Source of the DNA: Flavobacterium sp. 270
GTDB taxonomy: Bacteria; Bacteroidota; Bacteroidia; Flavobacteriales; Flavobacteriaceae
Direction of reading: 5' to 3'
Assembly: GCF_004368785.1 (NCBI RefSeq)
Contig: NZ_SODM01000009.1
Span: 1 to 64,000, forward strand
DNA length: 64,000 nt
Shown here: positions 25,309 to 32,722 of the stretch, one piece after another
Layout of the letters: every line of letters starts with the position of its first letter
Position numbering within the stretch: the first letter of the stretch is position 1
Position numbers and translations under genes: made by a program
Notes under the pieces: model-generated
Told to the model about the DNA's origin: nothing
Databases searched by the model: none
Seen by the model: the letters and a program-made list of their open reading frames with translations, nothing else

Positions 25309-25689
25309 TTACTTTTCAGCATTCCTAAAATATTCAATTTTATGGCTGAACATAAACGCCATATTTGTAGCACGCATTTTCGCCTCTTCAGTAATTGGCC
25401 CGACAAATTGAGCATCTATTGTAGTATTAAAAATACTTATCCAACGGTCAAAATGAGTTTGATCTACCGGTAATTGTTTGTGTGGCGGAAAAGGTGTTCC
25501 TGAGTAAGCACGAACATCGAATAAAATAGTCTGCCAGAAATTGTACATTTTTTGCAAATGCGGTTCCCAGCGGTCTTGTAATTTATCATTAAAAATAGGA
25601 CCAATAAGATCGTCTTTTCTAACATTACCATAAAAACTGTTGACCATTTGTTTTATATCTTCTATAGTTGAAATATCGTGAAGTTCCAT
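25309..25689 (-). CDS. Group III truncated hemoglobin
   Basis: 126 residues from the ATG at 25689 (MELHDISTIEDIKQMV). A longer frame to 25842 exists, but the extra 51 residues are Lys-rich and not globin-like, and a TACTTTTG -7 box sits at 25716-25723, just upstream of the chosen start. The chain shows the helical pattern of 2-on-2 globins (MVNSFYGNVRKDDLIGPIFND, then WEPHLQKMYNFWQTILF) and the PFPPHKQLPVDQTHFDRWISIF block, whose His is the likely proximal haem ligand. Group III globins bind oxygen or NO; the role here is unknown. It converges on the effector cluster. Confidence 0.9.
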   Translation of the reverse strand: MELHDISTIEDIKQMVNSFYGNVRKDDLIGPIFNDKLQDRWEPHLQKMYNFWQTILFDVRAYSGTPFPPHKQLPVDQTHFDRWISIFNTTIDAQFVGPITEEAKMRATNMAFMFSHKIEYFRNAEK

Positions 25690-26074
25690 TCTCGTTTGTA
25701 TTTTTAAATCCTTTACAAAAGTACGATATAACTCGTCTGCTGTTTTCTGATATTTATCATTTAATGATTTTTTCTGATCTTTTTTTGTTTGTATATAAGG
25801 TGCTAAAGGATGTTTTTGAAAGCAATTTGAATACCTCGTCAAGTAGTATGTTTTTTTGAGTTTTGTAAGGGTTGTGTTTTTTATTTATTTTATTGATAAT
25901 CAATATTTTGTATTTTGTTATGATAAGCTTTTGTAAGGTTTTAAAGCAATTTTGATGTGTATTTGTAAGGTTAATAAAATGTTATATAATTAATATTTAA
26001 CATAAATTTGATTGTTATTAATAAAATTAATCTTAAAAACAAAGAAAAATTAAATTATCAAAAACTTAAAAACT
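25690..26074. promoter_or_regulatory. Divergent control region between the globin and GH30 genes
   Basis: Plus-strand TAAATTTG at 26003-26010 is an exact TAnnTTTG box, with TTA 18 bases upstream, 65 bases before the GH30 ATG. Minus-strand TACTTTTG at 25716-25723 precedes the globin start. Between them, (T/A)TTTGTAAGG occurs three times in the same orientation: 25861-25870, 25929-25938 and 25961-25970, a candidate operator array. The rest is featureless AT-rich DNA. Confidence 0.5.
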
Positions 26075-28656: not shown

Positions 28657-29901
28657 TTAACCAATCAGCTGCGTAAACAAATCCTGATTATCATTGAGAT
28701 ATTGAAATTCAAAACCATTTTGTGTCATGTTTATTTTGATAGCCATAATATCATCTTTATTTTTCAACTCTAAACCAACCACTACAGAACCTACTTCGCG
28801 GTTGTTTTTTTTATGAAACTGAAAATACGTAATGTCATCATCGGGACCTAAAATATTATTTACAAATTCTTTTAAAGCGCCCGGACGTTGCGGAAACTGA
28901 ATCATAAAATAATGCATCAAACCTTCATAAAGTAAAGAACGTTCCTTTATTTCGGCAGTTCTTTCGATATCATTATTGCTGCCACTCACAACGCAGACAA
29001 CGGTTTTACCTTTTATTTTATCTTTATAAAGATCTAAAGCTGCAATTGTCAATGCGCCGGCAGGTTCTACAACCATTGCTTCTTCATTATACAATCTCAA
29101 AATTGTGGTGCAGACTTTTCCTTCGGGAACGAGAATTATATCTTCCAGATTTTGTTTGCAGATTTCAAAAGTCATATCGCCGACTTGTTTTACAGCGGCG
29201 CCGTCTACAAATTTATCAATGGTTTTTAGGGCTGTATTTTTATTTTCTTCAATAGAAGTTTTCATCGAAGGCGCGCCTTTTGGTTCAACGCCAATTATTT
29301 TAGTATTCGGACTCAAATGTTTAAAAACTTCCGATAATCCAGAAGCCAGTCCGCCGCCGCCAATCGGAACAAAAACATAATCAATAGGTGCTGCATAAGT
29401 TTCTAGAATTTCTAAACCAACAGTTCCCTGACCGGCAATTACTTTTAAATCATCAAAAGGATGCACAAATGTTTTGTGATTTTTAATGGCATCTGCTGTT
29501 GCCGAAGCATAAGCATCATCAAAAGTATCTCCGGTAAGAACAATTTCAACAAAAGATTTTCCGAACAATTGTACTTGTTTTACTTTTTGTTTCGGAGTTG
29601 TTTTGGGCATATAAATTTTGCCGTTTATCTGAAGTAAATTACAGGAATAAGCAACGCCCTGCGCATGATTTCCGGCACTGGCACAAACAATTCCGTTAGC
29701 TTTTTCTTTTTCAGTCAAAGATGAAATTTTGTTGTAAGCACCTCTAATTTTGTATGATCTTACAATTTGTAAATCTTCTCTTTTTAATAAAATAGTTGCT
29801 CCAAATTCATCCGAGAGATTCAAATTTTGAGTAAGCGGGGTAGCAGCAACTACGTTTTCTAAATGTTTTTTGGCGGCGAGTACTTCGTTGAATAATTCCA
29901 T
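28657..29901 (-). CDS. ilvA: Threonine ammonia-lyase (threonine dehydratase)
   Basis: 414 residues, PLP-dependent. The Schiff-base Lys lies in LKREDLQIVRSYKIRGAYNKI, followed by the SAGNHAQGVAYSCN phosphate-binding loop and the Gly-rich PIGGGGLASG. A C-terminal ACT-like regulatory domain (about 330-414, IQFPQRPGALKEFVNNILGPDD) is consistent with feedback control by isoleucine. The enzyme turns Thr into 2-oxobutanoate, the first step of isoleucine biosynthesis. No other ilv genes lie next to it. Its leader carries an Ile-rich peptide and attenuator (30011-30138) that should couple expression to Ile-tRNA charging. Confidence 0.95.
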   Translation of the reverse strand: MELFNEVLAAKKHLENVVAATPLTQNLNLSDEFGATILLKREDLQIVRSYKIRGAYNKISSLTEKEKANGIVCASAGNHAQGVAYSCNLLQINGKIYMPKTTPKQKVKQVQLFGKSFVEIVLTGDTFDDAYASATADAIKNHKTFVHPFDDLKVIAGQGTVGLEILETYAAPIDYVFVPIGGGGLASGLSEVFKHLSPNTKIIGVEPKGAPSMKTSIEENKNTALKTIDKFVDGAAVKQVGDMTFEICKQNLEDIILVPEGKVCTTILRLYNEEAMVVEPAGALTIAALDLYKDKIKGKTVVCVVSGSNNDIERTAEIKERSLLYEGLMHYFMIQFPQRPGALKEFVNNILGPDDDITYFQFHKKNNREVGSVVVGLELKNKDDIMAIKINMTQNGFEFQYLNDNQDLFTQLIG

Positions 29902-29922
29902 AATGGTTGTTTTTGTTTTTTT

Positions 29923-30000
29923 GCCACGAATTACACGAATTGCACTAATTTTTTTAGCTCAAACAAAGGAAAAAATTCGAGTAATTGTGTAATTCGTGGC
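29923..30000. repeat. Imperfect inverted repeat in the ilvA leader (GCCACGAATTACAC type)
   Basis: GCCACGAATTACAC (29923-29936) pairs perfectly with GTGTAATTCGTGGC (29987-30000). A related GTGCAATTCGTGGC sequence recurs near 18530-18545, so this is a dispersed element and not part of the attenuator logic. Confidence 0.7.
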
Positions 30001-30011
30001 GACTTAAAAAT

Positions 30012-30038
30012 AAAAAACCTCCCAGTTTTGGGAGGTTT
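30012..30038 (-). terminator. ilvA attenuator: intrinsic terminator (3:4 hairpin)
   Basis: On the minus strand AAACCTCCC (30030-30038) pairs with GGGAGGTTT (30015-30023) around a 6-base loop, followed by a T-rich tract. It lies between the Ile-rich leader peptide and ilvA, about 110 bases upstream of the ilvA start, so it can only serve to stop transcription before ilvA. Confidence 0.85.
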
Positions 30039-30100
30039 CATAAATTGTATGTTTACTTATTTATATAACACCTCGCCATTATTGCGTAATTGCAATAATG
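30032..30100 (-). promoter_or_regulatory. ilvA attenuator: alternative 1:2 and 2:3 RNA hairpins
   Basis: Minus-strand RNA. Region 1 CATTATTGC (30092-30100) pairs perfectly with GCAATAATG (30077-30085) at the end of the leader frame. Region 2 (30059-30074: GAGGT and ATAAAT) can instead pair with region 3 (30032-30045: ATTTAT and ACCTC), which overlaps the 5' arm of the terminator. The terminator and the 2:3 hairpin are therefore mutually exclusive, as in classical amino acid attenuators. Bulges are present in the 2:3 pairing. Confidence 0.75.
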
Positions 30101-30138
30101 CTGATAATAGCGATAATAATGTTATTAAAATTCGTCAT
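30079..30138 (-). CDS. Ile-rich leader peptide of ilvA (19 residues)
   Basis: Reads MTNFNNIIIAIISIIAITQ and a TAA stop; 8 of 19 codons are Ile and 2 are Thr. The frame is too short for standard gene callers. It is followed directly by the alternative hairpins and terminator and then by ilvA. A TACATTTG -7 box sits 19 bases upstream of the ATG. Isoleucine is the end product of the pathway that IlvA starts, so ribosome stalling at the Ile codons when Ile-tRNA is low would favour the antiterminator. The peptide itself is unlikely to have a function beyond sensing. Confidence 0.85.
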   Translation of the reverse strand: MTNFNNIIIAIISIIAITQ

Positions 30139-30156
30139 TTTTTCTTGTTTGAAAAA

Positions 30157-30164
30157 CAAATGTA
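30157..30164 (-). promoter_or_regulatory. -7 box (TACATTTG) of the ilvA leader transcript
   Basis: Exact TAnnTTTG on the minus strand, with CTG 18 bases upstream in place of TTG. It lies between the DUF4136 stop codon (30172) and the leader ATG (30138), so transcription would start a few bases before the leader frame, independent of the DUF4136 gene. Confidence 0.6.
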
Positions 30165-30171
30165 CTTAAAA

Positions 30172-30708
30172 TTATTTTTTTACAGGCGGATATTGCGCTA
30201 AAATTTTAGTTACAAACTCATTAACTTTTTCGTCTTTTTTATCAACGTTTTTAGTTAAGTTTCCGATTCCTTCACCTTGCCAAATCATTTCTTTCTTTTT
30301 AGCATCGATTAAATCAATGTATAAAGTTCCTTCTGTAGAAGTAGAAACAGAAGTCTGATTTCCATACATCATGTAAGGATTCCAACCCCAGCCCCAGCCG
30401 TAACCCCAGCCAGCGCTAAATTGATTTACATTTACCTGTTCTCTCGATTTAGTAAAAATGTTTACTAATAAATCCGGGTTTTCACTTTTAGTAAAACCTT
30501 TGGCTTGCATTTGCTCATCTATGGCACGTAAAATACGTCTTTTATCCAAATCAGAAATTTCGACCTTATCAATTCCGGGCTTAAAAAAAGCATAAGTCTT
30601 ATAAGGCGCAAAATCTACGTTTTTATCGTAATCAGAATAAACACTAACGGTACTACATGAGGCTAGTATTAAAAGCAAAAAAACTGGGACTAATTTGAAT
30701 GTTTTCAT
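30172..30708 (-). CDS. DUF4136 domain-containing lipoprotein
   Basis: 178 residues from the ATG at 30708 (MKTFKLVPVF). A longer in-frame start at 30768 overlaps the end of hutU and adds no signal peptide. The lipobox LLLILASCSTV marks a lipoprotein; the DUF4136 domain follows with YDKNVDFAPYKTYAFFKPG and a C-terminal strand LIDAKKKEMIWQGEGIGNLTKNVDKKDEKVNEFVTKILAQYPP. A Trp/Gly/Tyr patch (GWGYGWGWGWNPYMMYG) sits in the middle. The role is unknown. It lies 37 bases after hutU on the same strand, but a functional link is not evident. Confidence 0.9.
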   Translation of the reverse strand: MKTFKLVPVFLLLILASCSTVSVYSDYDKNVDFAPYKTYAFFKPGIDKVEISDLDKRRILRAIDEQMQAKGFTKSENPDLLVNIFTKSREQVNVNQFSAGWGYGWGWGWNPYMMYGNQTSVSTSTEGTLYIDLIDAKKKEMIWQGEGIGNLTKNVDKKDEKVNEFVTKILAQYPPVKK

Positions 30709-30745
30709 ATTTATAAATATTAATTGTTCTCGTTTTATTAAAAAA

Positions 30746-32722
30746 CTAAAGCAAACTTTCATCCACAAAATTGGGCAAAGTTACCTTTAATAAAGGCTGA
30801 ACTTCCATTGCACGTTTTATAGCAAAAACAGCACCTTCATTTCGAGCCCAGCTTCGTCTTGAAATTCCGTTGTTAACATCCCAAAAAAGCATTGATGCTA
30901 AACGGTTTGAAGCCTCTTTAGAACCATCAAGAACCATACCAAATCCACCGTTTATAACCTCTCCCCAGCCAACGCCGCCACCGTTATGGATTGATACCCA
31001 GGTAGCTCCTCTAAAACTGTCCCCAATTACGTTCTGAATCGCCATATCAGCCGTAAAACGGGAGCCATCATAGATATTTGAAGTTTCTCTGTACGGAGAA
31101 TCCGTTCCCGAAACATCATGATGATCGCGACCTAAAACCACAGCGCCAATTTCGCCTTTAGCAATCGCCTGATTAAAAGCTTCTGCGATCTTAACGCGAC
31201 CTTCGGCATCAGCATATAAAATGCGTGCCTGAGAACCCACAACCAGTTTGTTTTCCTGCGCGCCTTTTATCCATTTAATGTTATCCTGCATTTGCTGCTG
31301 AATTTCGTCTGGAGCGGTTTTCGCCATTTCTTCTAAAACCTGAGAAGCAATTGCATCAGTCTTTACTAAATCTTCCGGTTTTCCAGAAGTACAAACCCAA
31401 CGGAAAGGCCCAAATCCATAATCAAAACACATTGGTCCCATAATATCCTGCACGTAACTCGGATATTTAAAATCGATATTATTTTCGGACATTACATCAG
31501 CTCCTGCACGTGAAGCTTCTAATAAAAAAGCATTTCCGTAATCAAAAAAGTACGTTCCTTTTGCCGTATGTTTGTTAATTGCATCGGCATGACGACGTAA
31601 GGTTTCCTGAACTTTTTCTTTGAATAATTCCGGGTTATTGGCCATCATCTCGTTAGCTTCTTCAAAGGAAATTCCAACCGGATAATAACCGCCCGCCCAC
31701 GGATTATGAAGCGAAGTCTGATCTGAACCTAAATCAATTTTGATATTTTCCTTATCGAAACATTCCCAAACGTCAACAACATTTCCTAAATAGGCGATAG
31801 AAACCGTTTCTTTTTTGGCTTTCGCCGAATTGACTCTGGCAACCAATTCTTCTGTTGAAGTTACAATTTCGTTAATCCAGCCTTGTTCGTGGCGGATTTT
31901 AGTAATCTTCGGATTTACTTCGGCACAAACCGTAATACAGCCTGCTATATTTCCGGCTTTTGGCTGTGCGCCAGACATGCCGCCAAGTCCAGAAGTTACG
32001 AATAAATTGCCTTCGGGATTTAGTTTTATTTTTCTAAAACCATTCAAAACTGTAATGGTAGTTCCGTGTACAATTCCCTGTGGGCCAATGTACATATAAC
32101 TTCCCGCTGTCATTTGTCCGTATTGCGAAACGCCCAAAGCATTCATTTTTTCCCAATCGTCGGGTTTAGAATAATTCGGAATTACCATTCCGTTTGTTAC
32201 TACAACTCTTGGTGCTTCTTTATGCGAAGGAAATAATCCCATCGGATGTCCAGAATACATGGTTAAAGTCTGCTCGTCTGTCATTTCAGACAAATATTGC
32301 ATCGTCAATAAATATTGCGCCCAGTTCTGAAAAACCGCACCATTTCCGCCATAGGTAATCAATTCGTGCGGATGTTGTGCCACAGCATAATCCAGATTGT
32401 TTTGAATCATGTGCATAATCGCTTTTGCCTGCAAAGATTTTCCCGGATATTCGTCAATTGGTCTCGCGTACATTCTGTAATCCGGACGAAGACGATACAT
32501 ATAAATGCGACCGTATTTTTCTAATTCTTCCGAAAATTCAACAATTAATTCGGCGTGATGTTGAGGTTCAAAATAACGTAAAGCATTTTTTAAAGCCAGT
32601 TTTTTTTCTTCTGCGGAAAGAATTTCTTTTCGTTTTGGCGCGTGGTTTATTGCCAAATCGTATGCTTTTTTTGGAGGTAATATAGAAGGAATTCCTTGTT
32701 GTATTTCTTGTTGAAAGGTCAT
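30746..32722 (-). CDS. hutU: Urocanate hydratase (urocanase)
   Basis: 658 residues, the length of the Bacteroidota form of urocanase. The NAD-binding region GLGGMSGAQPKAGN and the active-site block with the conserved Cys (GFGPFRWVCTSGKPED) are present, as is RDHHDVSGTDSPYRET. The enzyme hydrates urocanate to imidazolonepropionate, the second step of histidine breakdown. The other hut genes (hutH, hutI, hutG) are not within the window, so the pathway is split. The upstream gap (32723-33062) contains only dispersed repeats, and I found no good promoter box. Confidence 0.97.
   Translation of the reverse strand: MTFQQEIQQGIPSILPPKKAYDLAINHAPKRKEILSAEEKKLALKNALRYFEPQHHAELIVEFSEELEKYGRIYMYRLRPDYRMYARPIDEYPGKSLQAKAIMHMIQNNLDYAVAQHPHELITYGGNGAVFQNWAQYLLTMQYLSEMTDEQTLTMYSGHPMGLFPSHKEAPRVVVTNGMVIPNYSKPDDWEKMNALGVSQYGQMTAGSYMYIGPQGIVHGTTITVLNGFRKIKLNPEGNLFVTSGLGGMSGAQPKAGNIAGCITVCAEVNPKITKIRHEQGWINEIVTSTEELVARVNSAKAKKETVSIAYLGNVVDVWECFDKENIKIDLGSDQTSLHNPWAGGYYPVGISFEEANEMMANNPELFKEKVQETLRRHADAINKHTAKGTYFFDYGNAFLLEASRAGADVMSENNIDFKYPSYVQDIMGPMCFDYGFGPFRWVCTSGKPEDLVKTDAIASQVLEEMAKTAPDEIQQQMQDNIKWIKGAQENKLVVGSQARILYADAEGRVKIAEAFNQAIAKGEIGAVVLGRDHHDVSGTDSPYRETSNIYDGSRFTADMAIQNVIGDSFRGATWVSIHNGGGVGWGEVINGGFGMVLDGSKEASNRLASMLFWDVNNGISRRSWARNEGAVFAIKRAMEVQPLLKVTLPNFVDESLL

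Follow-up and report, generated by a model that had tools for sequence, protein, structure and literature searches.

The expression of ilvA in Flavobacterium sp. 270, the gene for threonine ammonia-lyase, is very probably set by a ribosome-mediated transcription attenuator that responds to charged tRNA-Ile. In the window, the whole stretch of 64,000 nucleotides of DNA that was analysed, an Ile-rich leader frame, three RNA pairings including an intrinsic terminator, and a promoter box were identified by computation upstream of ilvA (Table 1), and are conserved in relatives. An Ile-responsive transcription attenuator of ilvA had been proposed in an earlier note made from the same DNA, and is still the best reading.

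Amino acid attenuators are best known from Proteobacteria and less so from Actinobacteria and Firmicutes, and the enterobacterial ilvGMEDA, thr, trp and his leaders are the classical leader-peptide attenuators. The unit before ilvA is similar to these in its short frame rich in codons for the regulated amino acid, in its mutually exclusive antiterminator and terminator, and in the position of the terminator just before the biosynthetic gene, but is different with respect to the leader, which holds almost Ile codons alone, and to the single gene ilvA under its control. IlvA is the committed (first) enzyme of Ile synthesis, on which Ile feeds back. The window protein scored 632.5 bits against the NCBIfam equivalog threonine ammonia-lyase IlvA (cut-off 421) and contains Pfam Thr_dehydrat_C; given this assignment and the established role of IlvA in Ile synthesis, the putatively sensed amino acid is the product of the pathway of the regulated gene. 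The locus offers a concrete, conserved and testable attenuator of Bacteroidetes, in which the committed step towards Ile would be governed by a putative sensor of Ile only.

Table 1. Features around the start of ilvA in the window. Nucleotide (nt) ranges under Remarks are counted along the leader.
Feature	Position	Strand	Remarks
ilvA, threonine ammonia-lyase with C-terminal regulatory domain	28657-29901	(-)	Family matches
84-bp palindromic repeat	29918-30001	(-)	Between terminator and ilvA; not in switch
Intrinsic terminator (3:4)	30014-30039	(-)	-16.3 kcal/mol; T-rich tail to 30006
Antiterminator (2:3), TGGcGAGGT..ATAAAT with ATTTAT..ACCTCCCA	30029-30078	(-)	Arms 30078-30059 and 30045-30029; -13.1 kcal/mol
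Extended 1:2 pairing	30066-30124	(-)	Outer helices nt 15-21/67-73 and nt 26-29/63-66
9-bp hairpin (1:2 core), CATTATTGC/GCAATAATG	30077-30100	(-)	3' arm over leader stop codon
Leader peptide frame MTNFNNIIIAIISIIAITQ	30079-30138	(-)	ATG at 30138, stop ends at 30079; 19 codons and stop
TACATTTG, match to TAnnTTTG	30157-30164	(-)	26 nt before leader ATG
DUF4136 gene	30172-30768	(-)	Upstream neighbour of leader; end lies about 130 nt before terminator hairpin

The Ile-rich leader frame and its promoter box

The leader frame encodes eight Ile and two Thr among its 19 codons, and no other ATG frame of 12-30 codons on either strand of the window reaches 40% Ile. The number of such frames expected by chance was 0.22 per 64 kb of first-order Markov sequence and 0.00025 for a 270-nt region of local composition, and on these values a chance frame was rejected. 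Comparison of 38 distinct 19-codon leaders gave a pN/pS of 0.37, with pN of 0.028 against pS of 0.120 at the eight Ile positions. This ratio would be, if anything, conservative, because RNA pairing also limits synonymous change. Alignment gaps within the frame were multiples of three as displayed, and gaps after the frame were not. Among 60 distinct leader peptides, Ile accounted for 41.9% of residues, Leu for 3.4% and Val for 1.1%. This pattern points to purifying selection on the frame at the protein level, and the pN/pS is an indirect sign that the leader may be translated.

A total of 80 loci of named Flavobacterium-type records were collected by protein search, and an Ile-rich ATG frame was found upstream of ilvA in 78. 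The two loci lacking it were L055 (F. araucananum, on the same contig as L010) and L104, for which only 118 nt of upstream sequence was available. In addition, the lone ilvA of genome G091 (locus L120) is preceded by a terminator and no Ile frame. The leader is therefore not universal, standalone ilvA genes without it being present in L055/L010 and G091. In more distant Flavobacterium genomes the frame was found in some only, largely in line with the setting of ilvA, either alone or last in an ilv operon. A covariance model, R1, was built from these leaders. Out of 150 genomes, 60 carried ilvA (E <= 3.3e-159), and by hand tally R1 matched at E <= 1e-8 in 41 of the 60 genomes with ilvA and in none of the 90 without; of the 150, at least 149 seem to have been included in the R1 search.

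The octamer TACATTTG fits TAnnTTTG, which we take to be the consensus of the Bacteroidetes -7 promoter box. When 101 distinct 45-nt regions upstream of Ile leaders were examined, 96 contained this motif, against a chance of 0.018 per region. In most cases it lay 25-28 nt ahead of the ATG, and the five leaders without it were all second leaders of tandem pairs. In further sets it preceded 6/7 ilvD leaders and 10/10 orphan-ilvN leaders. Among leaders arranged in series, it was found before 8/9 first leaders versus 1/10 later ones, that one at -56. Of 19 leaders from outside the genus, only three had an exact TAnnTTTG upstream, in each case away from the usual position; either the box differs in these genera or the TAnnTTTG rule does not carry over. 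A scan of sigma-70-type promoters was uninformative (19 found versus 19.6 expected), as is to be expected because the phylum has other promoters.

Conserved pairings of the leader RNA

The RNA of positions 30006-30145 was predicted to fold with z = -5.65, none of 200 shuffled sequences being as stable. The elements that the earlier note had named were all recovered as listed in Table 1: the 19-codon frame on the ilvA strand with its Ile and Thr codons, the box just upstream of it, a perfect 9-bp hairpin over the end of the frame, the alternative pairing of GAGGT/ATAAAT with ATTTAT/ACCTC that overlaps the 5' arm of the terminator, and a terminator with T-rich tail before ilvA, for which the terminator scan gave 11 pairs and which is kept in relatives. 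The description of the locus was incomplete in two respects, omitting the 84-bp palindromic repeat and the outward extension of the 1:2 hairpin. This extension joins leader nt 15-29 with nt 63-73, and in predicted folds it is the extended form, not the core alone, that competes with the antiterminator.

For analysis of conservation, 130 candidate rows were reduced to 112 distinct stretches. Eight rows had no terminator by rule, comprising second-in-tandem units (L032, L115, L116 and L143) and non-leaders (L030 twice, L074 and L114). Clustering of 104 distinct segments gave 66; omission of the second-in-tandem copies of L034 and L117 left 64 for alignment. In this alignment of 64 leaders, 93.3% of cells were paired for extended 1:2, 92.9% for 2:3 and 96.4% for 3:4, against at most 59.1%, 55.5% and 77.2%, respectively, in slid controls. 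Within 1:2, the 9-bp core helix was paired in 96.2% of cells and the two outer multi-pair helices in 90.1% and 89.9%.

Two-sided changes were counted in 9 cells for 1:2 (shuffled mean 3.3; 1/500 shuffles as high) and in 1 cell for 3:4 (shuffled mean 0.1; 37/500 as high). For 2:3, the 5 cells with such changes (shuffled mean 3.5; 182/500 as high) were not significant within the genus. The pairings are thus conserved, but two-sided covariation inside the genus is modest. It had been anticipated that an alignment of the ilvA upstream regions of Flavobacterium would retain the Ile codons, the terminator and the three pairings with compensatory changes; the Ile frame (78/80), the pairings and the terminator were indeed kept, and only the compensatory changes fell short, being few.

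For 2:3, a clearer result came from a test on single sequences, made with 96 distinct leaders. When the arm shared with the terminator was fixed and the spacer was shuffled, the 2:3 pairing gave a mean z of -3.96, with 95/96 leaders below -1.5. Viewed by eye across classes of attenuators, the terminator and antiterminator sequences change together, as GGcGAGGT/ACCTCCC before ilvA, GACGAG..AGG/CCTTTCTCGTC in second-position leaders, and GGGAAtGG/CCTTCCC in other genera. The antiterminator strand, again by eye, lies at most about ten bases from the stop codon or overlaps it in the classes viewed.

The proposed mechanism and its OFF state

From this arrangement we infer translation of the leader, stalling, termination, a response to Ile and a dominant OFF state, in the following order of events. 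Transcription would start just after TACATTTG, giving a short RNA with the Ile-rich leader. Upon scarcity of charged tRNA-Ile, the ribosome would stall in the Ile-rich stretch (codons 7-17) and leave the strand just after the stop codon (GAGGTGTTATATAAAT) free to pair with ATTTAT..ACCTCC; this 2:3 pairing would withhold the 5' arm of the terminator, and the polymerase would read through into ilvA. When tRNA-Ile is charged, the ribosome would reach the stop codon, which abuts the antiterminator strand, and its footprint would hide that strand, whereupon the terminator would form and transcription would end before ilvA. After release of the ribosome, the extended 1:2 hairpin may hold the antiterminator strand.

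This course was simulated with the 94 leaders that contain CCTCC, by folding the nascent RNA up to the 5' arm of the terminator under assumed positions and an assumed footprint of the ribosome. When the ribosome was placed on an Ile codon, be it the first, a middle or the penultimate one, the arm of the terminator was predicted to be mostly otherwise paired in 94/94 leaders. With the ribosome at the stop codon it was otherwise paired in 0/94, a result owed for the most part to the footprint chosen, under which the RNA was masked up to 12 nt beyond the stop. Without ribosome, the antiterminator was predicted in 83/94 leaders, and therefore at equilibrium the protector would not keep the system OFF.

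The role of the 1:2 hairpin is the point at which the locus may depart from the classical three-state logic, in which the OFF state requires this hairpin and a leader that is not translated is also OFF. The high pairing of 1:2 and its excess of two-sided changes over shuffled sequences speak for such a role, and since 1:2 is made before the antiterminator, it could win kinetically. In addition, synonymous recoding of the frame weakened 1:2 somewhat (mean z -1.49; 47/96 below -1.5). However, when the sequence after the stop codon was shuffled, the natural 1:2 was no better than the shuffled ones (mean z -0.69; 14/96 below -1.5), and the equilibrium state without ribosome was the antiterminated one. 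The classical protector is thus not clearly selected, as it is not distinguishable from shuffled downstream sequence. Of the 1:2, 2:3 and 3:4 logic claimed for this locus at first, the antiterminator and the terminator were upheld and the protector received weak support; we regard the full three-state logic as less likely than not, with a substantial minority share of probability. We prefer the ribosome at the stop codon as the principal OFF signal, because the stop codon stands beside the antiterminator strand and because the predicted state without ribosome is so often antiterminated; the 1:2 hairpin may assist it kinetically.

F. johnsoniae would be a clean system for two questions, namely whether a protector hairpin is needed when the stop codon adjoins the antiterminator, and whether coupling of transcription and translation in Bacteroidetes is close enough for attenuation.

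Related putative attenuators before other ilv genes

In this genome, an ilvD-ilvB-ilvN-ilvC set is located on another contig, after leu-like genes; ilvD was assigned by Pfam PF00920, and the labels ilvB, ilvN, ilvC, ilvE, leuA and leuB, here and in relatives, are ones we presume from recognised resemblance of the translations. A second attenuator precedes this ilvD (L176, 9941-10071; G000:C1:157940-158070); its leader, MQISIIITSVVVVNVFSTSASGMV, mixes Ile and Val, and its terminator is AACCTTCC..GGAAGGTT. A pattern search of the genome for the terminator gave three copies, at ilvA, at ilvD, and after a small 90-aa gene; at the last copy no Ile-rich leader was found.

Some other Flavobacterium species have a complete ilv operon that ends in ilvA, and in two genomes (G042 and G060) such an operon adjoins urocanase or DUF4136 genes, a neighbourhood that recalls the window. 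There are also shorter forms, ilvB-ilvN-ilvA (L145) and ilvN-ilvA (L143, L144, L192 and L193). The series of forms suggests a stepwise break-up of an ilv operon that left ilvA behind.

Among the upstream regions of 13 loci of these full and shorter forms, two or three leader-terminator units were found in eight by script and in a ninth (L186) by eye. Series of two or three Ile-rich attenuators before ilv genes are those of L183 (3867-4264), L184, L185, L188, L189, L143, L144 and L145. Of another 20 R1 loci retrieved in the genus, 12 stand before an ilvN-like gene, resembling genes for the small subunit of acetolactate synthase, without adjacent ilvB (L230-L236, L239, L240 and L247-L249), six before ilvD and two before ilvA. 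In L231 and L239 the orphan ilvN-like gene is followed by a second ilvA-like gene, and one genome (G585) carries three attenuator loci of the orphan-ilvN kind. The two genes of these 12 that were scanned, in L230 and L231, pass TIGR00119 and fail the NF008864 cut-off, and the ilvN-like gene of L143 is below both cut-offs.

Outside the genus, 21 of the best 28 R1 loci are followed on their strand by ilvA at 5.7-7.4 kb, a distance from which these loci would stand before ilv operons. From the best 28 loci, 19 leaders were taken, rich in Ile and Val (e.g., MKKQILNIVSIIVIVIISQR); L256 and L259, of Ile/Val-rich look, were left out of the 19. A second Ile-rich leader with terminator follows in 7 of the 19, as compared with 0 of 950 Markov controls. 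In second-position leaders of other genera (L253, L264, L269, L275 and others) the same terminator recurs, CCTGTATCA..TGATACAGG, together with a matching strand similar to TGATGCAG that follows the stop codon. At E <= 0.01, R1 matched in 112 of 219 genomes; matches at E of 0.001-0.01 in other genera were numerous, and many of those below the best 28 loci may be chance. Of 57 related attenuators, one (the second of L186) was without terminator by rule and hence unscored; for the other 56, the spacer test gave a mean z of -1.35, with 23/56 below -1.5. This score is weaker than that before ilvA partly because in some of them the antiterminator strand lies inside the frame, outside the tested stretch.

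These loci raise a wider reading, which is tentative and to which we give slightly less than an even chance. The ilvA unit would belong to a family of Ile/Val attenuators throughout Flavobacteriaceae, often two or three in series per transcript, with no separate promoter box for the later ones, and with the stop-codon ribosome rather than a protector as OFF signal. The unit would have moved as a module: with ilvA it would have become Ile-only after the break-up of an ancestral ilv operon, the relocated ilvDBNC would have a mixed Ile/Val leader, and copies, up to three per genome, would control orphan ilvN-like subunits. If this is true, the fractions of read-through at successive attenuators would be multiplied, and the response would be sharper. 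With the copies in series in relatives, it becomes testable what the stacking of identical sensors does quantitatively.

Attenuation by leader peptide is itself of a known kind, and the serial, module-like family outside the window is the more novel part. The ilvB-II motif of Corynebacterium, the ilvB motif of Leptospira and the ilvB-OMG motif of various phyla are described as uORFs rich in branched-chain amino acids, with attenuation proposed and, for ilvB-II, reporter data (PMC10272879); they share with the present leaders an amino-acid-rich uORF upstream of branched-chain genes, but are different in preceding ilvB. The ilv-leu operon of Staphylococcus aureus is likewise under leader-peptide control of branched-chain synthesis, but its attenuator peptide is leucine-rich, senses leucine and belongs to another phylum (PMC5794164). 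Tandem attenuators are described for Salmonella mgtCBR, with two small frames in one leader that sense ATP and proline (PMC3641672); the frames stand in series there as well, but all series leaders in the relatives studied here are Ile(/Val)-rich. Within the same genus, leader-peptide attenuators have been inferred in F. psychrophilum as a general remark, with conserved 5' elements at pheA and hisG; the string ilv is absent from the main text of that study, and its supplement may overlap with the present findings (PMC9723704). Searchable texts on attenuation in Bacteroidetes give general remarks only, and a search that covered a minority of subscription papers and no supplements listed none on attenuation of ilvA in Flavobacterium or Bacteroidetes.

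The occurrence of the unit in these other contexts also bears on whether the hairpin merely terminates the DUF4136 gene upstream, the Ile-rich frame being there by coincidence. The short distance on the same strand (Table 1) fits such a view, and so does the G091 locus, in which the similar terminator lies right after the DUF4136 stop codon. However, the interval between the DUF4136 gene and the hairpin contains a promoter box as well as a frame that is under purifying selection, and the leader-attenuator unit is also present before orphan ilvN (12/20 fetched loci), before ilvD (6/20), and before ilv operons in other genera. On these grounds, termination of DUF4136 was rejected as the whole story and is held to be very improbable. 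Control of ilvA by a metabolite-binding riboswitch or a T-box, for which the structured 5' region and the terminator ahead of a biosynthetic gene would speak, is scarcely credible and the least probable of all, since no Rfam family, T-box and known riboswitches included, reached its gathering score in the 64-kb window (the best sub-threshold match, Thr_leader RF00506, gave 31.2 bits against a gathering score of 55), the Ile codons and the helices account for the conserved bases, and the substitution pattern is that of protein-coding sequence.

The 84-bp palindromic repeat between terminator and ilvA is matched 80 times in the genome when the palindrome is counted in both orientations. In relatives, the distance from leader to ilvA falls into groups of about 133-160, 205-266 and farther, as if palindromic-repeat-like elements come and go at this position. 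In L103 (F. hydrocarbonoxydans), 682 nt separate leader and ilvA, with several GCCACGAATT-like repeats within. In one relative (G120:C3:113522-114762), ilvA is in two pieces, one with an internal stop, and the leader is intact. A globin-family gene (Pfam Bac_globin) is located at 25309-25842 of the window on the minus strand, and globin-like frames, identified by eye, also adjoin ilvA in L237, L238 and L143.
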